Made by a program: the position numbers and the translations under genes
Source: a virus
DNA length: 28,733 bases
Virus record (IMG/VR): IMGVR_UViG_3300046804_006063
Coordinates: 1 to 28,733 of that record
Reading direction: 5' to 3' (one strand)
Notes under the pieces: generated by a model
Databases searched by the model: none
What the model saw: only the letters and a program-made list of their open reading frames with translations
Told to the model about the DNA's origin: nothing
Shown here: positions 1 through 24,713 of the stretch, one piece after another
How the letters are laid out: each line of letters starts with the position of its first letter
Numbering within the stretch: position 1 is the first letter of the stretch

Positions 1-1734
1 CCGACGAGCACCTGTCCATTCGGTGCCTTCTTCCATGTCGGCTTCTGCTAGATCAGCCGATGATTTTCTGGATCCATGTTTCACAATGTCTTCCAGATTA
101 TCAATGAGTTGGGCTTGGATTTCTTCATGGTCATCATCAGGGTGATAATGATAATCAACCACTATGTCATCTATCATTGATTGTAACTGTGGGAACCTGT
201 CCAGCAAATCAGATAAAGATTCACCACGTTGATGTAGATCAATAACTCTCTGAGCTAATTGAGTATCATCGTAGGAGATTCGTTTATTTCCAGCTTCGTA
301 CATTTCCTGACCTGGCTTCATGACATCAGTCATCAGATCGTCAGCTCGATCACCGCCCAGACCTTCTGATACTGGTTTGACGTCGCTCACAATTTCCGAT
401 CCAGTGGCATCGGCCATGTGATAGGCTTGAATTTCTGCACTGCCCTGTGACACTGCTGAGATAGTCTTGGTCACCGTTTTGCCGTTCTTTTGAAAACTCA
501 CTTCAAACTGTTGCATCTGTCCTTCCTTCACAGTAACACTGGTGCCTGGAGGTAACTTGGATGCTCCACCAGATCCCATGAGTTTAGCCACCTGAGCTGC
601 GCCTTGTTTATCATCCTTGTCCAATTCAATAGCCACAGTGCCTTTGGGAGTGAGCTGCACATTGGTCTTGGGCTCGTTGGGTTTTTCTGGTTGCTGCCCC
701 ATCAGCTTCTGCACAGCCTGCACCTTGGGATTGGCAGCCGCGTCCACTTCGTTCACAACACTGTCAGTCCACTGGGCAAATTCATCAAATTCTTTCAAAT
801 TACTCATCTGATATGCTCTCCATACATAGGGTAAACTGTGATCCAGTTGTTCATCATACTGATTGCGAACAAAGTGATTTTTTACCTCTGGGTTATATTC
901 AATTTGGGTTTGCTCTGCGATGGCTGGTGAGTATCGGCTATAACCCTTGACACCACTCAGCCCGTTGAGCATCTTCTTGACTTCAGCCAGTCTGAGACGG
1001 GCACTCTCGATCATACCCACTGCTGTGACATCTTCATACTGTTTGCTGTGGGTGCGACGCAAAAACTTACTGAGTGATACCGCTTCAGTGACAGCATTGC
1101 TGATACCCGATCCAGTGGCATCATAGGGATTGCCGCCCTGGGCCACGTGTCTGGCCATGGCTCTGGCTCCACGCAAGCTGGTAAACGGCATCAGAAATTT
1201 TTCGCCCTGGGCATTTTCCACATAGATCCGGTGTATTCGTCGAGTTCTGGCCCCACGTACATCATCATTGATAACATCAGTGTGTTTCAGGATGATTTTG
1301 ACGTCTTCCAGTGTCTGCACACTGGTTTTCACTGTGCCTGTCAGAGCGCTGAACTTGCTTTCCTGCACTGTGCGTTTGCCGGGTTCAGTTTCCACGTTGG
1401 TGACCTGGAATCCCAGCATGCGACCACGAGCCCATTCCTTTAGCTCAGCCAGAAACTTTGAAAAATCAGTGTTGAGCTGGTTGGCCATGTCCTGGTCGTA
1501 CTCCACTGTGACTTTGCTGACCACGTCAGCATCCAGTTTGCGCTCGTTGTCAGTCAGGCTGACTTTGACGTTTTCACTGGTGCCTTGGTCATCGTGATAT
1601 TCAAAAACAAAAGTGGTGACTTCATCATAGTCAGATGTTTCCTCACCGTCGGCATTCAGCATGTCCACTGGATGAAATTTCACATTCAACCATTCATATA
1701 ATTCTTCGCTGTGATTTTTCTTCTGTTTAGGCAT
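1..1734 (-). CDS. large phage structural protein, C-terminus beyond window
   Basis: The minus-strand frame is open from ATG at 1734 to the window edge (578 codons, no stop), so the 3' end is missing. I recognise no catalytic domain. The N-terminal ~200 residues look like a virion protein common in uncultured T4-like phages, including the segment ENAQGEKFLMPFTSLRGAR followed by AMARHVAQGGNPYD. A second segment near residue 300 (NLKEFDEFAQWTDSVV) is also typical of those proteins. The last 100 visible residues are acidic and His-rich (YHYHPDDDHEE). The gene follows terminase with an 11-base gap. A late-promoter-like box (AATAAATA) overlaps the terminase stop, with no Shine-Dalgarno. A structural role is inferred from resemblance and position; it is not the portal as far as I can tell. 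Coding is certain, function is not. Confidence 0.85.
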   Translation of the reverse strand, partial: MPKQKKNHSEELYEWLNVKFHPVDMLNADGEETSDYDEVTTFVFEYHDDQGTSENVKVSLTDNERKLDADVVSKVTVEYDQDMANQLNTDFSKFLAELKEWARGRMLGFQVTNVETEPGKRTVQESKFSALTGTVKTSVQTLEDVKIILKHTDVINDDVRGARTRRIHRIYVENAQGEKFLMPFTSLRGARAMARHVAQGGNPYDATGSGISNAVTEAVSLSKFLRRTHSKQYEDVTAVGMIESARLRLAEVKKMLNGLSGVKGYSRYSPAIAEQTQIEYNPEVKNHFVRNQYDEQLDHSLPYVWRAYQMSNLKEFDEFAQWTDSVVNEVDAAANPKVQAVQKLMGQQPEKPNEPKTNVQLTPKGTVAIELDKDDKQGAAQVAKLMGSGGASKLPPGTSVTVKEGQMQQFEVSFQKNGKTVTKTISAVSQGSAEIQAYHMADATGSEIVSDVKPVSEGLGGDRADDLMTDVMKPGQEMYEAGNKRISYDDTQLAQRVIDLHQRGESLSDLLDRFPQLQSMIDDIVVDYHYHPDDDHEEIQAQLIDNLEDIVKHGSRKSSADLAEADMEEGTEWTGARR

Positions 1735-1745
1735 ATGATTATTTA

Positions 1746-3308
1746 TTAGAACACTGCAATAAATGGCATGGGTTCGATGAATTCATCCTGCCGATCTGAT
1801 ATCTGTTGTTCCAGTTCTGGATGATAATTTTTCAGCACCTGGCTCATGCGTACCACCAGCATCAGCGCCATGACCAAATCGTCAGTCTCACCATATTTAG
1901 CTGCAAAACTGACTCCGCTGCTGATGAATGTTTTGAGTTCGCTCACCAGATTCTTACTGATTATGGTGATTTTGTCGTTTTCAACCAGGCTTTTGAGCTT
2001 GGCACAAGCTGCCAGTTTGGATTTGGGCGTGGTGGTAAAACCTTTGCGGTATCGGCGTGTCTGACCTGCTCTGGCTGGTTCGCTCAGGAACACTCCGTCA
2101 ATGTTCTCCTCACCGATTTCACTGATGCTGACCAGGGCAGCTTCCCCCAGGGTATTGTTTTCCACACTGTAATAGACGTTGTTGACACCTGCTGAATCAC
2201 TGCACCTTTTGACCATTTCTTTCAGCACCTGAATCTGCTTTTGTACCGGTGTGCGATTGTGTTGCCATTCGGCCACCTGAATCATAGTGGGCACTTCAAA
2301 AACTTCAATAGCAGCCATATCGCCGCCGGTGCCCAAGCTGGGGTCCAGTGCCACCAGATACAATCGATCTTTCTGTGGTTTGCGATACCAACGCACTTGC
2401 CCCTGAAGCTCTGCAGGATCCTGACCCTGCATTTCCAGCAACTTCATGCTGTTGATCAGGGTCTCATCAGCCACCACAAAGCTGCATTCATGTTCACGTT
2501 TGAATCGCTCTTCGCCAATACGAGCCATTTCGTCCTGTTTCCACCGTTCATCACGATCTGGGTGTTCATGCCAATAACTGCGATAGGCTTTGAACCCGTT
2601 GATGCCCAGTGGAGTGGGGTTGCCCCATTCATCAGTGCATCGGTTGGCTTGCTTCCAGATCTGAGCAAATTGATCCTCGTCACTGCTGGGCGTGCTGGTG
2701 ATCAGAGCCTTACCACCGGTGCTCAGTGTGGGTGAAATGGAAACCCAGAATTCTCTGGCAATACTGGGTCTGACGAATGCAAATTCGTCCAGGTAAAGCA
2801 GTGTGATACTCATACCTCTGCCGGTGGTTTCTGTGGTGGTTTGTGCCACAATGCGACTGCCATTCTCAAATTCTATACTGCCTTTGTTGTAGCTGACCAC
2901 ACCGGCTCTGATGAAGTCAGGTGTGGATTCATAAGCATATCTGATACGTTGCATGATTTCCTGAGCGCCAGTGTATTTGTGAGCAGCAATCAGGATGGTG
3001 CTATCAGGCACAAACATAGCATACCATAACAGATATCCAGCAGCAGTGGTGCTCTTGCCAGTCTGACGGGGAAGTAGGGCAATGGAGAATCGGTAGTTGT
3101 GGTAGACTTCCAGCAGTCTGATCTGATATTCAAAAGGCTGATACTGGATTTTTCCCCGGGTAGGGTGCTGAATATAAAAGTAGTTGCTCATGAAGTGCAT
3201 GGGTCCTGACACTGGGTCCATGCACTGAGCCAGTTCTGAAATCTGATGTTGAGTCCAGCTCTGGGCCTGATGTGGTTTTTTGATTAGATTGTAGTCCTGA
3301 TTGGCCAT
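1746..3308 (-). CDS. terL: terminase large subunit (T4 gp17-like ATPase and nuclease)
   Basis: This is the DNA-packaging motor, which pumps DNA into the prohead at the portal and cuts the concatemer. The 520 residues carry the full set of motifs. Walker A is RQTGKST (81-87), Walker B is LLYLDEF (170-176) with catalytic E175, and the coupling motif is TSTPSS (204-209). The C-terminal RNase H-like nuclease has D322 in LDPSLGTGGD, E383 in SVENN and D476/D477 in GETDDLVMAL. The length is somewhat below the ~600 of T4. The ATG at 3308 is preceded by a late-promoter box (TGTAAATA) ending six bases upstream and no Shine-Dalgarno, so the mRNA would have almost no leader. It is divergent from the HNH gene. 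Unlike T4, it is separated from the small terminase by about 7.6 kb. Confidence 0.96.
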   Translation of the reverse strand: MANQDYNLIKKPHQAQSWTQHQISELAQCMDPVSGPMHFMSNYFYIQHPTRGKIQYQPFEYQIRLLEVYHNYRFSIALLPRQTGKSTTAAGYLLWYAMFVPDSTILIAAHKYTGAQEIMQRIRYAYESTPDFIRAGVVSYNKGSIEFENGSRIVAQTTTETTGRGMSITLLYLDEFAFVRPSIAREFWVSISPTLSTGGKALITSTPSSDEDQFAQIWKQANRCTDEWGNPTPLGINGFKAYRSYWHEHPDRDERWKQDEMARIGEERFKREHECSFVVADETLINSMKLLEMQGQDPAELQGQVRWYRKPQKDRLYLVALDPSLGTGGDMAAIEVFEVPTMIQVAEWQHNRTPVQKQIQVLKEMVKRCSDSAGVNNVYYSVENNTLGEAALVSISEIGEENIDGVFLSEPARAGQTRRYRKGFTTTPKSKLAACAKLKSLVENDKITIISKNLVSELKTFISSGVSFAAKYGETDDLVMALMLVVRMSQVLKNYHPELEQQISDRQDEFIEPMPFIAVF

Positions 3309-3314
3309 GTTGAA

Positions 3315-3322
3315 TATTTACA
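3315..3322 (-). promoter_or_regulatory. T4 late-type promoter box for terminase
   Basis: TGTAAATA, a 6/8 match to the T4 late box TATAAATA. It is followed by six bases (TTCAAC) and the terminase ATG. The predicted start is position 3309, one base before the start codon. It is paired back to back with the HNH box. Confidence 0.6.
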
Positions 3323-3364: not shown

Positions 3365-3916
3365 ATGAGCGATACTCTAATTCTAACACCCGATTATCAA
3401 CCAGCAGATTTTCTACCACTCAGTGTGGTAGACTGGCAAACTTGTATCAGATTGATGTGCTTGGATAAAATCAAGCCTGTGCATCTGTATGAAAATCGTT
3501 GGATCAACAGCCCCAAGCTGAAAATTCAATTGCCCAGTGTGGCTGTGACCAGCGACCATTTCAATTTCCGCAAGGGTCGGGTCAGATACAGTCGTCATCT
3601 GATGTATGTCAGAGACTTATTCACCTGCCAGTACTGCGGAGAAATTTTCACTGCCAGAGAGCTCAGTATTGACCACGTGGTGCCACGCTGTGAAGGTGGT
3701 AAGACCAGCTGGGAAAACTGTGTGACCAGTTGCCGTGACTGCAATCTCAGAAAGGGTCACAAGAAGTGGAGACCCATCAACGCTCCGTTCAAACCAGACT
3801 ATTATGCTCTGGCTGCTCGCAGACTGGAATTACCCATACAGGTGGGTCATGAAAGCTGGCTGCCCTATCTGCAAGTGGGCGGCAGAATGGCACAGCGAGT
3901 TCAGATTCGAGCTTGA
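3365..3916 (+). CDS. HNH endonuclease
   Basis: A 183-residue protein with a complete HNH nuclease core: C88-x2-C91, then DH at 103-104 in SIDHVVPRCEGG, N118 in SWEN, and C123-x2-C126-N127 followed by RKG. The paired CxxC motifs form the structural zinc site, and H104 with N118 are the metal and catalytic positions. The N-terminal 80 residues (PDYQPADFLPLSVVDW, then MCLDKIKPVHLY) match the stand-alone HNH family found widely in phages and bacteria. It is transcribed divergently from terminase. HNH enzymes next to terminase often assist packaging cleavage in other phages, but it could equally be a free-standing homing endonuclease. A hairpin terminator lies 62 bases after the stop, inside the convergent gene. 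Confidence 0.93.
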   Translation: MSDTLILTPDYQPADFLPLSVVDWQTCIRLMCLDKIKPVHLYENRWINSPKLKIQLPSVAVTSDHFNFRKGRVRYSRHLMYVRDLFTCQYCGEIFTARELSIDHVVPRCEGGKTSWENCVTSCRDCNLRKGHKKWRPINAPFKPDYYALAARRLELPIQVGHESWLPYLQVGGRMAQRVQIRA

Positions 3917-5433: not shown

Positions 5434-5523
5434 TTATTCACCCTTAAACAGTTCAGCGTTTTCTTTTACAATCTTGCTGACCGGCTTTGAGCTCCACGTT
5501 GATAAAAATTTTTCGTCTAACAT
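5434..5523 (-). CDS. 29-residue small protein
   Basis: An ORF of 29 codons, starting MLDEKFLSTWSSKPVSKIV and ending LFKGE. It is preceded by a 7/8 late box (GATAAATA, 5529-5536) with the exact five-base spacing to ATG seen at other strongly supported starts in this window. It ends two bases before the ADP-ribosyltransferase-like gene. It may be a real leaderless gene or the first cistron used to initiate that operon. No function is recognised. The AT-rich, Lys/Glu-rich composition is compatible with coding but cannot prove it. Confidence 0.55.
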   Translation of the reverse strand: MLDEKFLSTWSSKPVSKIVKENAELFKGE

Positions 5524-5528
5524 GTTTT

Positions 5529-5536
5529 TATTTATC
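5529..5536 (-). promoter_or_regulatory. T4 late-type promoter box before the 29-codon gene
   Basis: GATAAATA, a 7/8 match to TATAAATA, followed by AAAAC and ATG. The predicted transcription start coincides with the A of the ATG at 5523. Confidence 0.6.
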
Positions 5537-10881: not shown

Positions 10882-10901
10882 GGTGAATCTTCCTATAATG
10901 G

Positions 10902-11393
10902 TTATTTAGCTTCGGTGTCTTTTTTCTTCAGTATCTCAGCAACCAAAGCGTTGCGATCTATCACAGTGGCTACTCCATCAGACACTGGCACAGTGTTACT
11001 AAAGTCTGCTGCTCGTTGATCCAGTGCAGCTTTTTTCAGTTGCAATTCGATCATTTTAAGCTTCTTCTCTATCTTGTTTTTCTTGGCTGTCAGAGCATGA
11101 CCCAGCAGATTGCTAGCTGCACCAAAAATTTCCGCAGCATGGCGAGTTTCCACGTTCATGCCTAGCTCCATGAGATTCTGATAGCCTTCGGTTGCCATCT
11201 GAGCCAGCTGATCCATTTCACGTTCACTGGCTTCCAGCCCCACCACCTGAGGCAGAGCCTCGTTGATCTTATCCACATTGCCCACTGTCTTGGCAAGTTC
11301 AGTTATCATGGCTGGCGTCTGATGGGGTTCAGGTTCCAGCTGCACTGGTTCTGTATGTTCCAGGTTGAATATTTTTTCCAGATTGGTGTTCAT
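10902..11393 (-). CDS. 16: terminase small subunit, T4 gp16-like
   Basis: The 163 residues have the layout of T4-like small terminases. An acidic N-terminal tail (MNTNLEKIFNLEHTEPVQLE) is followed by a long helical centre with TRHAAEIFGAASNLLGHAL and a charged coiled coil (KNKIEKKLKMIELQLKKAAL). A short C-terminal element, VIDRNALVAEILKKK, is comparable to the C-terminus of gp16. These proteins form a ring that recognises viral DNA and regulates the gp17 motor. The gene overlaps the gp4-like gene by four bases (ATGA), consistent with translational coupling in a packaging operon. Sequence conservation in this family is low, so the assignment rests on architecture, size and context. Confidence 0.68.
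   Translation of the reverse strand: MNTNLEKIFNLEHTEPVQLEPEPHQTPAMITELAKTVGNVDKINEALPQVVGLEASEREMDQLAQMATEGYQNLMELGMNVETRHAAEIFGAASNLLGHALTAKKNKIEKKLKMIELQLKKAALDQRAADFSNTVPVSDGVATVIDRNALVAEILKKKDTEAK
10903..10910 (-). promoter_or_regulatory. T4 late-type promoter box before the 196-aa gene
   Basis: GCTAAATA, a 6/8 match, overlapping the stop codon of the small terminase gene. The predicted start is near 10897, ahead of AGGAAG and ATG 10881. Confidence 0.45.
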
Positions 11394-11828: not shown

Positions 11829-12161
11829 TTACGCCCTGATCTCTCTCTGAACACTGAACGGCGTGTTCAGGTTTAGTGCTACGCCCAGTTTGGAGTTGCT
11901 CACACGATTCTGATTCAGATAACCGGCCAGCCAGACATCCTGTTCATAACTATCACCCTGCTGACGCATCAGATCAGCAAATTGCCCAGCAGTGAGGTTG
12001 AGACTCTTAGCCACTATGGCAAAAGCTGCTATGTATTCTTTTTGCAATTCAGGATCGCTAACTCGGGTTTGTACCAGACTTTTCAAGGCATCAAACTGAG
12101 TGGATTCTATAGCCACATCTATGGGGCCTGATTGCCCCTGACTGTTGAAATAAGTACTCAT
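11829..12161 (-). CDS. conserved T4-like small virion protein (110 aa)
   Basis: A helical protein of 110 residues with SLNLTAGQFADLMRQQGDSY, then EQDVWLAGYLNQNRVSNSKL and an ending LNTPFSVQREIRA. This pattern is familiar from a small protein found between tail and head genes in cyanophage-type T4 relatives, whose function I do not know. The start is well defined: ACTAAATA followed by ATGAT and ATG, with no Shine-Dalgarno, which predicts transcription starting on the A of ATG. It is the first gene of a tightly packed unit with gp4 and the small terminase, so a head completion or packaging role is plausible but unproven. Confidence 0.78.
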   Translation of the reverse strand: MSTYFNSQGQSGPIDVAIESTQFDALKSLVQTRVSDPELQKEYIAAFAIVAKSLNLTAGQFADLMRQQGDSYEQDVWLAGYLNQNRVSNSKLGVALNLNTPFSVQREIRA

Positions 12162-12166
12162 ATCAT

Positions 12167-12174
12167 TATTTAGT
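12167..12174 (-). promoter_or_regulatory. T4 late-type promoter box, leaderless architecture
   Basis: ACTAAATA + ATGAT + ATG. The element and spacing are identical to those before the gp13-like gene at 21056. The predicted start is 12161, the A of the ATG. Confidence 0.6.
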
Positions 12175-14088: not shown

Positions 14089-14105
14089 AATATAAATCTC
14101 CTGTC

Positions 14106-14122
14106 ACAAATGAATCATTTGT
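14106..14122 (-). other. 17-bp palindrome in the tail tube leader
   Basis: ACAAATGA-T-TCATTTGT (minus strand) starts about three bases after the predicted late start at 14125 and ends five bases before the AGGAGA. As RNA it folds into a stem-loop at the 5' end of the tube mRNA; as DNA it could be an operator. The position relative to the start matches the stem-loop of the GIY-YIG leader. Confidence 0.55.
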
Positions 14123-14130
14123 TCTACAGA

Positions 14131-14138
14131 TATTTATG
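14131..14138 (-). promoter_or_regulatory. T4 late-type promoter box for tail tube
   Basis: CATAAATA, a 7/8 match, with predicted start 14125 and an ~37-nt leader containing a stem-loop and AGGAGA. Confidence 0.65.
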
Positions 14139-14184: not shown

Positions 14185-15723
14185 TTATTTTGAGTTGGCC
14201 TTATTCCAGACCCATCGAGCATGACCGCAGTCCCAGATTCGATCCCACCCTTGTGATTGCCTGTTTTGCCATTCAGTTAGATCTGGATTATCTTGTGCAT
14301 TTTTGCGCAAAGTGAATCTGTGAATTCTGGTTACATCAGGCAGTGAAAAATACCAATAGCCCGGAGAGGTATGTTTTTCCAACACAAAACCCAGGTTACT
14401 ATAACTGTCTCCAGTAAACCATTTGGAATCGGCATAGCTGACTACAGTGCATGGCTGTACTCGTCGACAAAATTCTGCAAATAATTTACCTGCCCCGCCT
14501 TGAACGATCAAGTCAGCAGAGCCAGCCATTCTTTGTATCTCCCATTCGGTATTTTTTCTGCTGATGTTTTTTTGACTAAACGTCATTGCATATACCAGTT
14601 GATCGTCATGTAGCAATCCCAGTCTGATCTTGCTGGCAGCATAACCGTGAATATGGTTTTTCTCAAAAAAGTTTCGGGCTTGAGCTGTGTCGAGATCTAT
14701 GATTTTGCACTTTCGTGCTGCTAACCGATTGGTAGTGATTCCCAAGTTTCTGATCAGCATCTGTTGAACAATATCTTTTTTGAAAATCCACTCGTCTTCG
14801 AAGATAGTAATAAGTTTGATTCCCTGATCTAGGCATCGTTGCCATTTGATTTGATGATACGCTGATGTCTTTTGTCCAGTATTCTCACTGTGCCAATACA
14901 AACCACAGTATTCAATAGCCAGTTTTTTCTCCGGAATATATATGTCCAGTTCCAGAGGAGTGATGACTGAACGATCGCCCAGTCGCACCGCTGAACTGGT
15001 ATGATTACGAACCCAATCACATATTTCCAATTCGGCTCGGCTATGCAAGGGAGATTTTTCACGACATTTGGGACATATATTGTGCAATATTTGTGATAAT
15101 TTTTGTTTATTGGAATTGGTGAATGTTCGAGTGAAATGAAATCTGCACACATTACATTCACAAATTATGGTATCACGATCGATATCAATCACAGCAATGT
15201 CGTATGATTCCAGCAATTGTTTTCTGTTTTCTATAGTTTGTATCCTGATTTCTTCTCGATGTTGCTGTGTACTGATTAGAATTTTCTTTTTGGTTTCCTC
15301 AGAATGTGTACGACCTGCCATACCACTGGTAATGTAGCCTCGAGATCTTTTAGTGACCACGGCTTTGTGAGCTCTAGTAGATAGTTCTTCTCGATTTGAT
15401 TCTGAATACTTTCTGACAGATTCACTTATTTTTTGCCGAGTCTCAGTTGAATGTGGGTTGCCTCGTAGAAATTCTCCGGCTTGATATCTGGCTTCTCGTT
15501 TTTTTATTCGATCACGGTGAGCTGCTAATAATTCTGGATCAGTGATTTTTTTGCCTCGATTGTGAGGAACTCGCTTTTGTTGCAATTGGCGAGTCTCTTC
15601 GCTGATCGTAGAGCCGTATTGTCTAGAATATTCTCTTCCAGTAATTCCGTGTTCTTTTTGCAAATGTTGGTAGGGTATGATTTTGGGAAACTCCGCATCG
15701 CACAATTGGCATCGTATTGACAT
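14185..15723 (-). CDS. Vsr-like (EDxHD) homing endonuclease with NUMOD repeats
   Basis: A 512-residue free-standing homing endonuclease. An N-terminal zinc finger (C5-x2-C8 then H-type ligands) is followed by NUMOD3-like DNA-binding repeats (NPHSTETRQKISESVRK and MAGRTHSEETKKKIL) and a second zinc module (CECNVC with CPKC). The nuclease is of the Vsr-like EDxHD class known from I-Bth0305I: E231 in AELEI, D260 in LELDIYIPEK, E271 and H278 in IEYCGLYWHSE, and D310 in IFEDEW. The last ~170 residues form a domain I know from Hef-like phage endonucleases but cannot name. A GTG 21 bases upstream is in frame. ATG 15723 is preferred because GAGAGG lies upstream and the perfect TATAAATA box predicts a transcript starting at 15739. 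It sits between tail sheath and tail tube. Confidence 0.9.
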   Translation of the reverse strand: MSIRCQLCDAEFPKIIPYQHLQKEHGITGREYSRQYGSTISEETRQLQQKRVPHNRGKKITDPELLAAHRDRIKKREARYQAGEFLRGNPHSTETRQKISESVRKYSESNREELSTRAHKAVVTKRSRGYITSGMAGRTHSEETKKKILISTQQHREEIRIQTIENRKQLLESYDIAVIDIDRDTIICECNVCRFHFTRTFTNSNKQKLSQILHNICPKCREKSPLHSRAELEICDWVRNHTSSAVRLGDRSVITPLELDIYIPEKKLAIEYCGLYWHSENTGQKTSAYHQIKWQRCLDQGIKLITIFEDEWIFKKDIVQQMLIRNLGITTNRLAARKCKIIDLDTAQARNFFEKNHIHGYAASKIRLGLLHDDQLVYAMTFSQKNISRKNTEWEIQRMAGSADLIVQGGAGKLFAEFCRRVQPCTVVSYADSKWFTGDSYSNLGFVLEKHTSPGYWYFSLPDVTRIHRFTLRKNAQDNPDLTEWQNRQSQGWDRIWDCGHARWVWNKANSK

Positions 15724-19095: not shown

Positions 19096-19176
19096 TATTT
19101 TTCTCCTAAAATTCCATATAGCCTTGGTGAATCATCTGAGCTATAGATGTCGATCGAGCAAGTGATCCATTGTTGG

Positions 19177-19184
19177 TATTTATG
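19177..19184 (-). promoter_or_regulatory. T4 late-type promoter box for tail sheath
   Basis: CATAAATA, a 7/8 match. The predicted start is 19171, leaving a 76-nt leader. The leader holds a 9-codon ORF (19170-19141, MDHLLDRHL) beginning at +2 and a possible stem TATAGC/GCTATA before the Shine-Dalgarno. Confidence 0.62.
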
Positions 19185-19231
19185 AACTTCTGGGTTTTTT
19201 AGCTGGTTCAGCACACCTTTGAAAGGGTTCG

Positions 19232-19239
19232 GGTAAATA
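19232..19239 (+). promoter_or_regulatory. T4 late-type promoter box, leaderless architecture
   Basis: GGTAAATA + ATCAC + ATG. A 6/8 match with the five-base spacing that puts the predicted start on the A of ATG 19245. It is divergent from the sheath box. Confidence 0.58.
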
Positions 19240-19244
19240 ATCAC

Positions 19245-19589
19245 ATGAGGCCACTGTGCAAAACCTGTAAAACCCGACCCTGCGCTGTGAATTATCACAA
19301 CAGTGACCGAATCTACTATCGTAGTCGATGCGAACGCTGCTGGAAACAGAAGCGTCAGCAGGCCTATTCCAAACCAGTATGGCAGCTCAGAGGCTATCAA
19401 AAGAAAAACACCTGTGATCGCTGCGGCTACCGCAACAATGTTTCACAGGTGTTTGGTGTTTATTGTGTGGACGGTGATCTAAAAAACGCTCAGCCCAACA
19501 ATCTCAGAACAGTGTGTGCTAACTGTCAGATCCTGCTGAGTGTTAGCAATCAGGGTTGGACCAATGCTGAGCTGGTCAGCGATTATTAG
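19245..19589 (+). CDS. Cys-rich HNH-like zinc protein (114 aa)
   Basis: A small protein with two probable zinc sites: C5-x2-C8 with C29-x2-C32, and C57-x2-C60 with C91-x2-C94. The second half follows the HNH outline (CDRCGY, then VYCVDGDLKNAQPNNLRTVC), but the usual catalytic His is replaced by C74 while D76 and N86 remain. It may therefore be a binding protein or an inactive nuclease rather than an active enzyme. The N-terminus MRPLCKTCKTRPCAVNYH is the usual start of this family in T4-like phages of aquatic bacteria, which supports ATG 19245 although there is no Shine-Dalgarno. It overlaps the convergent dNMP kinase by 14 bases. Confidence 0.82.
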   Translation: MRPLCKTCKTRPCAVNYHNSDRIYYRSRCERCWKQKRQQAYSKPVWQLRGYQKKNTCDRCGYRNNVSQVFGVYCVDGDLKNAQPNNLRTVCANCQILLSVSNQGWTNAELVSDY

Positions 19590-20300: not shown

Positions 20301-21056
20301 TTAGCCCAAAATCCAGGTCAAAGGTTGTGAGCCGTCAACGTAATTCTTCAGATCTTCCATCAGCTTTTCCATCTCTTCTTTGGCTTCATTTTTCAATGCT
20401 TCACCATTCAGTGTTGTTCCGCCCTGTGGCCCTGCAATCTGGCCAAACTTACTACGAGCTTCACCCAGGGTGTATTTGCTCATGCTGTAAGTGTAATCCT
20501 TGATCCAGTTGCTGATGCGATAATCATTGAGTAACTGGATTTCGGGTTTCATGTTGAATGTCCAGAGCAGGAAAGTTTCACCGGAATTCTGTGGACGGCG
20601 CACAATGACCAGTTTCTTGGTGGCAGGATTGAATGTATAGTTCACATAACCACCAAACATTCTGGCAGTCATTTCCTGGTACTGAGTATACAGTTCATAG
20701 CTGAGCAATCCACCAGTACGACCCACTTTGAGCAAGTAGGTGTTCAAATAGCCAGCTTCAAAGGGTTCGAACTGATTGCCTGCACTCTGCCCAGTGCTGC
20801 CAATGGTGCGTCTGAATATTTGTCTCACAGTGGTGACTTCCTGAGGCAGAATGTATTCCTGCTGATCTTCCACCAGATCCAGAAATGCATAGCTTTCCTC
20901 TTCGGAATTCTGACTACGAGCTCGGTATGTCTGCACAGCTTTGGCATAGGCCATCTCGTAGTGTTCTGGGGATAATTCTACGTCTACCATCCCATCGCCC
21001 AGACGTAATCTCACATAATCAAAAACACCCTGTTTCAATTCATCCAATGTAGGCAT
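20301..21056 (-). CDS. 13: neck protein, gp13-like
   Basis: A 251-residue head-tail connector protein. The N-terminus MPTLDELKQGVFDYVRLRLG then DGMVDVELSPEHYEMAYAKA matches the start of T4 gp13 (IKGRLGYPVVDVELTDEQF). The centre has EYILPQEVTTVRQIFRRTIG and SYELYTQYQEMTARMFGGYV, and the C-terminus (LGEARSKFGQIAGPQGGTTL) is the conserved signature of the aquatic T4-like form. gp13 joins gp14 in the neck that closes the filled head and docks the tail. The start has ACTAAATA + ATGAT directly before ATG and no Shine-Dalgarno. It is divergent from gp14, its functional partner, with two late boxes back to back between them. Confidence 0.85.
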   Translation of the reverse strand: MPTLDELKQGVFDYVRLRLGDGMVDVELSPEHYEMAYAKAVQTYRARSQNSEEESYAFLDLVEDQQEYILPQEVTTVRQIFRRTIGSTGQSAGNQFEPFEAGYLNTYLLKVGRTGGLLSYELYTQYQEMTARMFGGYVNYTFNPATKKLVIVRRPQNSGETFLLWTFNMKPEIQLLNDYRISNWIKDYTYSMSKYTLGEARSKFGQIAGPQGGTTLNGEALKNEAKEEMEKLMEDLKNYVDGSQPLTWILG

Positions 21057-21061
21057 ATCAT

Positions 21062-21069
21062 TATTTAGT
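21062..21069 (-). promoter_or_regulatory. T4 late-type promoter box for gp13, leaderless architecture
   Basis: ACTAAATA + ATGAT + ATG; the predicted start is 21056, the A of the ATG. It is nine bases from the divergent gp14 box. Confidence 0.62.
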
Positions 21070-21078
21070 TTTTCTCAC

Positions 21079-21086
21079 CATAAATA
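21079..21086 (+). promoter_or_regulatory. T4 late-type promoter box for gp14
   Basis: CATAAATA, a 7/8 match. The predicted start is 21092, giving a 13-nt leader that begins with the Shine-Dalgarno GGAG and ends at GTG 21105. Confidence 0.68.
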
Positions 21087-21104
21087 AACAAGGAGAAACT
21101 ATCA

Positions 21105-24346: not shown

Positions 24347-24700
24347 CTATTCTGTGATCCAGGGTTCCAGGGCAACTAGGTCCATTGCACTGAATTTGAT
24401 GTCACTGATTTCAGTGATACTGACTTTGATGTCTGGTAACTCAATGGTTTCGTTCAGCAGTGCATTTATTTGCTCCATGAATTCTGCCATGAATTCTGCC
24501 TTGATCACAACACCATTGTCCTGTTGTTCACCATATTTTTCAAACAATTTTTGTCTGGTGGTTTCGAAATGAGCTAGTTCAGAACCAATTATTTTGATTA
24601 ATTTACTCAAACGAAAACTGACCTGGATGGGTAATTCTGTTTTGATTAATTTATCTAAACTGGGCTCTGCATTTTTCAGTTGTGCTATATTGATAGTCAT
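24347..24700 (-). CDS. conserved phage protein of unknown function (117 aa)
   Basis: A helical, acidic protein starting MTINIAQLKNAEPSLDKLIK and continuing LPIQVSFRLSKLIKIIGSEL, then RQKLFEKYGEQQDNG and a C-terminal SAMDLVALEPWI. This layout is shared by many small proteins of tailed phages (the DUF1617-like group), usually near virion genes, with no known function. An in-frame TTG 45 bases upstream is less likely than ATG 24700. A box-like TATATATA is spaced five bases before that ATG, as at other leaderless starts. It is the last gene before the embedded terminator and may be independent of the sugar genes upstream. Confidence 0.75.
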   Translation of the reverse strand: MTINIAQLKNAEPSLDKLIKTELPIQVSFRLSKLIKIIGSELAHFETTRQKLFEKYGEQQDNGVVIKAEFMAEFMEQINALLNETIELPDIKVSITEISDIKFSAMDLVALEPWITE

Positions 24701-24705
24701 ATTGA

Positions 24706-24713
24706 TATATATA
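24706..24713 (-). promoter_or_regulatory. weak late-type promoter box
   Basis: TATATATA, a 7/8 match to TATAAATA, followed by TCAAT and ATG 24700. The spacing is that of the leaderless class, but the AT-rich context makes a chance match likelier here. Confidence 0.35.

Follow-up and report, generated by a model that had tools for sequence, protein, structure and literature searches.

A set of genes in this phage and its relatives is very probably expressed from gp55-type late promoters that are fused to the start codon, giving mRNAs with leaders of 0–3 nt and forming a second, routine tier of late expression. The features of the DNA on which this reading is built are a bimodal spacing between box and start codon, the absence of a Shine-Dalgarno (SD) sequence from one of the two resulting classes only, the gene-specific conservation of class, its distribution among clades, and a gp55-type sigma factor in relatives. 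From these we infer the position of the transcription start, for which the geometry is taken from T4, as well as leaderless translation and a lower expression tier.

In the mechanism that we propose, T4-like late promoters of the gp55 type would carry a TAAATA box 4–8 nt before the start codon. Transcription would begin about 5–7 nt past the box, and the mRNA would start on the A of the AUG or at most 3 nt from it. Because such an mRNA would start at the AUG and carry no SD, ribosomes would have to initiate at an AUG lying at the 5' end. Bulk virion proteins (sheath, tube, portal, and large baseplate wedge) would be served by other late promoters, which have the box 17–30 nt upstream together with an SD, and the close set would serve terminase, some low-copy structural proteins, and enzymes.

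Close boxes in the window

The window, the whole stretch of DNA analyzed, is a virus record of 28.7 kb and a fragment, and sites are numbered on the whole stretch. Its terminase is 55% identical to that of the Pseudomonas phage PA5oct, 51% to that of the Sinorhizobium phage Phosso, and about 41–42% to those of CBB and 121Q. Recognizable structural genes include those for the sheath, tail tubes, head closure (gp4-like), and a gp13-like adaptor, and glycosyltransferases were also identified. Judged by its terminase and its T4-like structural module, the phage is a T4-like jumbo phage of the PA5oct/Phosso/CBB group. Megablast of the window against known phages gave no match, and a host-link scan of genome contigs found no relative. 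In all counts only exact TAAATA was taken as a box, and starts were sequence-based ATG-ORF calls. The close class was defined by TAAATA 4–8 nt before the start codon and the far class, in whole relatives, by a distance of 17–30 nt.

A preliminary description of this DNA had reported five starts lying exactly 5 nt behind a late box, and all five were present, at 1734(-), 5523(-), 12161(-), 19245(+), and 21056(-) (Table 1). Shuffling predicted 0.29 ± 0.57 occurrences of TAAATA-N5-ATG, and none of 100 shuffles reached five. The element common to the five sites was the hexamer TAAATA, not the whole T4 8-mer, the two preceding bases being AA, GA, AC, GG, and AC. The spacing of six described for terminase was also found (TAAATA-TTCAAC-ATG, start 3308(-)). 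For a further start at 24700, described as having a weaker box, the 5-nt spacer was present but the box reads only TATATATA, which is weak and doubtful. The close-box genes had been said to lack an SD; among those encoding 80 aa or more no SD-like duplex was scored, nor can one be seen at 5523. Other genes of the same phage do carry one, as had been noted, namely 10881(-), 14088(-), 19095(-), and 21105(+), all with more distant boxes. In the fetched loci, no homologue that could confirm the start was found for the 5523, 12161, and 24700 ORFs.

Table 1. Late boxes, spacers, leaders, and the genes behind them in the window
Feature	Positions	Strand	Remarks
Late box AATAAATA (1747-1740) + 5-nt spacer ATCAT	1735..1747	(-)	Precedes ATG 1734
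Virion structural protein gene (phrog_13484), close-class	1..1734	(-)	Downstream of terminase; runs off window
Late box TGTAAATA (3322-3315) + 6-nt spacer TTCAAC	3309..3322	(-)	Precedes terminase start 3308
Terminase large subunit gene, close-class	1746..3308	(-)	
Late box GATAAATA (5536-5529) + 5-nt spacer AAAAC	5524..5536	(-)	Precedes ATG 5523
29-aa ORF, uncertain gene	5434..5523	(-)	Behind 5523 box; no homologue found
Late box TAAATA 21 nt before ATG 10881, SD TAGGAAG	10882..10908	(-)	
110-aa gene, close-class	11829..12161	(-)	No family or homologue found
Late box ACTAAATA (12174-12167) + 5-nt spacer ATGAT	12162..12174	(-)	Precedes ATG 12161; site of the preliminary description
Late box 42 nt before tail tube ATG 14088, SD ACAGGAG	14089..14136	(-)	
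Late box + long leader of sheath gene 19095, SD TTAGGAG	19096..19182	(-)	
Late box GGTAAATA (19232-19239) + 5-nt spacer ATCAC	19232..19244	(+)	Precedes ATG 19245
114-aa Cys-rich (CxxC) gene, close-class	19245..19589	(+)	Divergent from sheath gene
gp13-like head-tail adaptor gene, close-class here only	20301..21056	(-)	
Late box ACTAAATA (21069-21062) + 5-nt spacer ATGAT	21057..21069	(-)	Precedes ATG 21056
Late box 18 nt before GTG 21105, SD AAGGAG	21081..21104	(+)	
Weak box TATATATA + 5-nt spacer TCAAT, doubtful	24701..24713	(-)	Not TAAATA; precedes 117-aa gene, ATG 24700

Several other features of the window were recorded. In the sheath leader (19141-19170(-)), a 9-codon ORF, MDHLLDRHL, starts at an ATG 6 nt past the late box and precedes the SD-led sheath gene; this short upstream ORF may be leaderless or simply due to chance. 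The box of the 19245 gene is preceded, at a distance of 7 nt, by a palindrome, CCTTTGAAAGG (19216-19226), a variant of which occupies about the same position in G012, G015, G022, and L031; the palindrome is possibly an operator, or possibly a coding constraint from the other strand. Endonuclease genes (homing-type, HNH) stand between virion genes at 14185-15723(-) and 3365-3916(+), adjoining the sheath/tube genes and terminase, and the HNH gene next to terminase is found again in many relatives. The unrelated proteins 4724(-), 4368(-), 5431(-), 8028(-), and 10881(-) have similar N-termini (MKIFELFEAK, MRARDFLIED, MRASDFLPEH, MKTFAQYLTEA, and MKSFLQYLTES), and relatives carry starts similar to these; the motif resembles the sequence that targets internal head proteins of T4 to the capsid.

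Spacing, Shine-Dalgarno sequences, and start signals in relatives

We analyzed 80 IMG/VR loci with terminases 65–70% identical to that of the window and measured the distance from TAAATA to the first ORF-opening ATG. The distribution was bimodal, with 31, 93, 12, 40, and 12 cases at 4, 5, 6, 7, and 8 nt, few at 9–17 nt, and a second mode at 18–25 nt. Unrelated permuted hexamers were flat, while ATAAAT and CTAAAT, which overlap the box, mirrored its pattern. Since these loci have genes in common and are therefore not independent, we also read two whole relatives, G012 (354 kb) and G022 (347 kb), IMG/VR records of uncertain completeness. There, 40 and 38 genes, respectively, had the box at 4–8 nt versus 2 and 2 at 9–13 nt (p about 1e-9 in each), with a second mode at 17–30 nt, and in G015 the counts were 14 versus 0. 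No permuted hexamer peaked at 4–8 nt in G012 or G022 except the overlapping ATAAAT. By sequence, about half of the boxed genes belonged to the close class. ATG was strongly enriched as the start codon at 4–8 nt, and GTG and TTG were about equally rare at 4–8 and 9–13 nt. A fixed spacing of 5 nt, as first described, is the mode in the window, but relatives range over 4–8 nt with modes of 5, 4, and 7, so that "exactly five" describes the local mode and does not hold as a rule.

The two classes differed sharply in SD content, scored as a duplex with the 16S tail at or below -4 kcal/mol. Such a duplex preceded 3%, 3%, and 8% of close-class genes in G012, G022, and G015 versus 68%, 82%, and 50% of far-class genes, with 9–12% at random positions. 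Two GC-rich megaphages (GC 57–59%), G025 (L218, 578 kb) and G026 (L269, 500 kb), gave 6% in both close classes versus 64–75% in the far class. Among boxed genes, then, the lack of an SD is specific to the close class, in relatives as in the window. Boxless genes had an SD in 32–51% of cases by rough start calls, leaving about half or more without a clear one, which tells against our reading, although those starts are uncertain.

A lack of SD would also be seen if the start codons were wrongly called and the true starts were internal and SD-led. This is highly improbable: 23 of 97 close-class genes do have an in-frame start with an SD within 40 codons, but codons 60–99 gave 18 of 80 in the same test, which is background. 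Moreover, N-termini are conserved from the box-proximal Met onward (MREINKIA.. and MTKKLEELFNLP..), orthologues of the 1734 gene having MREINKI-type N-termini in common and those of the 19245 gene a CxxC motif within about the first 10 residues.

Base composition after the box bears on where transcription starts. Far-class promoters had A at the fifth base after TAAATA in 66% of cases and were enriched for A at bases 5–7; in the 7-nt close class the fifth base was A in 69%. In the AT-rich relatives, a pyrimidine occupied position -1 in 97% of genes with the 5-nt spacing and in 82% of the close class as a whole, versus 54% of the far class, which fits a YR initiator placed at the AUG. G026 departs from this, with mostly G before the ATG (34 of 69), and the signature is therefore not a general one. 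No base was conserved within the 10–12 nt preceding TAAATA, the tabulated stretch, which ends short of the -35 zone. Together, the start signals suggest, on the T4 analogy, that transcription would begin at the AUG or no more than 3 nt upstream of it. Alternatively, the sigma factor might start at another distance, and the mRNA would then begin inside the gene or with an SD-less leader of 5–12 nt. The start geometry assumed for the clade does come from T4, which leaves room for this, but the A enrichment of the far class and the pyrimidine before the AUG in the close class of the AT-rich relatives make it improbable.

Gene arrangement leaves little space for ordinary leaders. Thirty-seven of 97 close-class genes were divergent from their neighbor, and divergent close-close pairs were separated by gaps as small as 27 nt (G022 100379/100407: GACCTGTATTTACAAGTAAATATTGCT), 29 nt (G012 310397/310427), 37, 42, and 51 nt. 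Leaders of ordinary length would have to start inside the opposite gene, and there would be almost no leader room. Terminator-like T-runs were found just upstream of several boxes, in one gene family directly before the box. These observations bear on the possibility that the genes are leadered but SD-less, being read from farther upstream with the AU-rich box as an unstructured landing site for ribosomes. Many close-class genes do lie directly behind a gene on the same strand, and AU-rich unstructured leaders can replace an SD. Yet the divergent genes, some with gaps of only 27–29 nt, and the T-runs before some boxes count against read-in. An AU-rich enhancer, furthermore, would not yield a single hexamer at 4–8 nt with an empty zone at 9–16 nt, and the SD class uses the same hexamer as its box. 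We regard read-in as unlikely. Translational coupling, with re-initiation past upstream stops, some of them within 8–12 nt, would suit the 1734 ATG, which is 11 nt past the terminase stop; it is hardly credible for the class, in which divergent genes have no upstream partner and same-strand gaps vary between about 0 and thousands of nt.

Gene classes, phage distribution, and machinery

Close boxes recurred at the same genes. The preliminary description had named conservation of spacing in relatives as a test of its proposal, and the 4–8 nt distance was kept for the gene after terminase (1734 in the window; 93 of 109 boxed lineages), for terminase (84 of 96), and for the 19245 gene (4–5 nt in each of the five genomes that yielded it). 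In nearly every relative, the tail tube gene and the 10881 gene were leadered. The gene for gp13, listed earlier among the close-box genes, is close-class in the window (21056) but leadered in G012, G022, and G015. Reciprocal best orthologue pairs among these three and the window (mean identity 45%) were close-close in 27 cases, far-far in 31, and discordant in 13, against about 35 discordant pairs expected from class frequencies; about one fifth thus disagreed. By these sequence comparisons, class is gene-specific and is kept between orthologues at ~45% identity.

The far class held the portal, sheath, tubes, large baseplate wedge, and fiber or decoration proteins, and the major capsid gene had a strong SD. 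In the close class were terminase, a gp25-like baseplate protein, the structural proteins phrog_11591 and phrog_13484, and enzymes (kinase, cytidyltransferase, radical SAM, glycosyltransferase, and phosphoesterase). The lists suggest tiers of high and low output. The portal, of which T4 has 12 copies, belongs to the far class, and copy number can therefore not be the only rule. A-rich early codons were considered as a leaderless signature and rejected (40% versus 38% A, no real difference).

To place the trait among phages, we used a terminase tree of 174 sequences, where the window and PA5oct both belonged to a group of 153 sequences (support 0.81). The 152 lineages of this group other than PA5oct had 369 close, 25 intermediate (9–15 nt), and 218 far boxes, and the 21 terminals outside it had 7, 12, and 76. 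The difference from T4 that had been expected was borne out: the close class was not found in T4, nor in S-PM2, PA5oct, Phosso, Atu_ph07, CBB, XaC1, or Vibrio 2.275. Whole-record counts of TAAATA-N4-8-ATG versus a backwards control were 21/26 in T4, 48/68 in PA5oct, 8/8 in Phosso, and 14/55 in CBB, and 108/3 in G026 and 72/0 in G025. Within 400 kb of G026, 69 of 127 TAAATA lay 4–8 nt before an ORF ATG (53 at 4 nt and 14 at 5 nt), as did 34 of 118 in 400 kb of G025. In a 40-kb, mostly non-structural sample of Cr30, boxes were too sparse to be informative. An origin by chance or composition could draw on the frequency of TAAATA in AT-rich phages (PA5oct has 109 in 50 kb), but the shuffles, the flat controls, and the clear signal in genomes of 57–59% GC refute that explanation, and we consider it practically negligible. 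A single origin of the close class was unsupported. G025 and G026 lie on other branches, outside the main clade, and PA5oct is inside the group and lacks the class; the trait has therefore probably been gained or lost more than once.

A gp55-type late sigma factor, phrog_12791, was encoded in 9 of 10 records searched, including G012, G022, G025, and G026; none was seen in the window, a fragment. Because it occurs in relatives assigned to the leaderless and leadered types alike, the difference would be one of promoter placement and not of possession of the sigma factor. Phage-borne bS21 was examined as a cause and rejected: it is present in G012, G015, G025, and G026, which have the leaderless class, but also in the leadered PA5oct, Phosso, and Atu_ph07, and was not found in G022, and so does not track the trait. 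The bS21 gene of G012 (G012:C1:233180(-), locus L102) is itself close-class, 7 nt past its box. No phage-borne IF3 was found in the records of 22 relatives, many of them fragments.

Leaderless late mRNAs had been put forward as a routine strategy for a subset of genes. Conservation of spacing, the class-specific SD deficit, and the contrast with T4 all support this, the leaderless step itself being what we infer. A broader proposal is tentative, and we lean slightly against it: several large T4-like lineages may run a two-tier late program from one sigma factor, in which box position alone would set SD-led expression of bulk virion parts or leaderless expression of low-copy parts and enzymes. 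Leaderless initiation would then be the default for anything from tens of genes to about a hundred in each genome; it would have arisen or disappeared on more than one occasion, and late changes to host ribosomes may have favored it. If 5' ends were confirmed, there would be a large conserved set of leaderless genes under a T4-type late sigma factor, and the handling of leaderless mRNAs by host ribosomes during infection, along with box position as an expression dial, would become testable. For jumbo-phage metagenomes, TAAATA plus 4–8 nt may serve as an annotation rule that marks the start codon, where SD-seeking gene callers can err.

Comparison with known systems

A review (PMC3594737) describes the middle and late mRNAs of the Thermus phage phiYS40 as leaderless and reports that IF2 rises and IF3 falls. 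The present case would resemble it as a large phage whose later transcripts lack leaders, with leaderless translation used across the genome, which by sequence would involve about half of the boxed genes here; phiYS40 is a different phage in a different host, and here two late-promoter classes coexist and are assigned gene by gene. Leaderless transcripts are also known from Mycobacterium and other bacteria (PMC4633059, PMC3898074), in which SD-less mRNAs starting at AUG are routine, as they would be here, but those come from cellular genes and promoters and not from a phage late sigma factor.

T4 late promoters (gp55/gp33/gp45) have a short box of the TATA type, placed about one helical turn ahead of the start site, and no -35 element (PMC2988020). 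TAAATA is the core of the TATAAATA-like box here, and relatives encode a gp55-type sigma factor; the T4 box, however, is mostly 24–28 nt before the ATG with an SD between, and T4 has no 4–8 nt class. Late motifs have been described as ATAAATA in jumbo phage CBB (PMC5259590) and NATAAATA in S-PM2 (PMC2984593). There, the same motif precedes structural genes of related phages, but the spacing in CBB and S-PM2 is mostly 20–30 nt, with no close class. The passages on late motifs in T4, cyanophages, and CBB make no mention of leaderless starts alongside them, and among the open-access papers searched, a set that takes in few subscription papers, none described leaderless late mRNAs for a T4-like or PA5oct-type phage. 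Leaderless phage mRNAs, as in phiYS40, and late motifs of the TAAATA type are known; what would be new is the placement of T4-type late promoters at the start codon.
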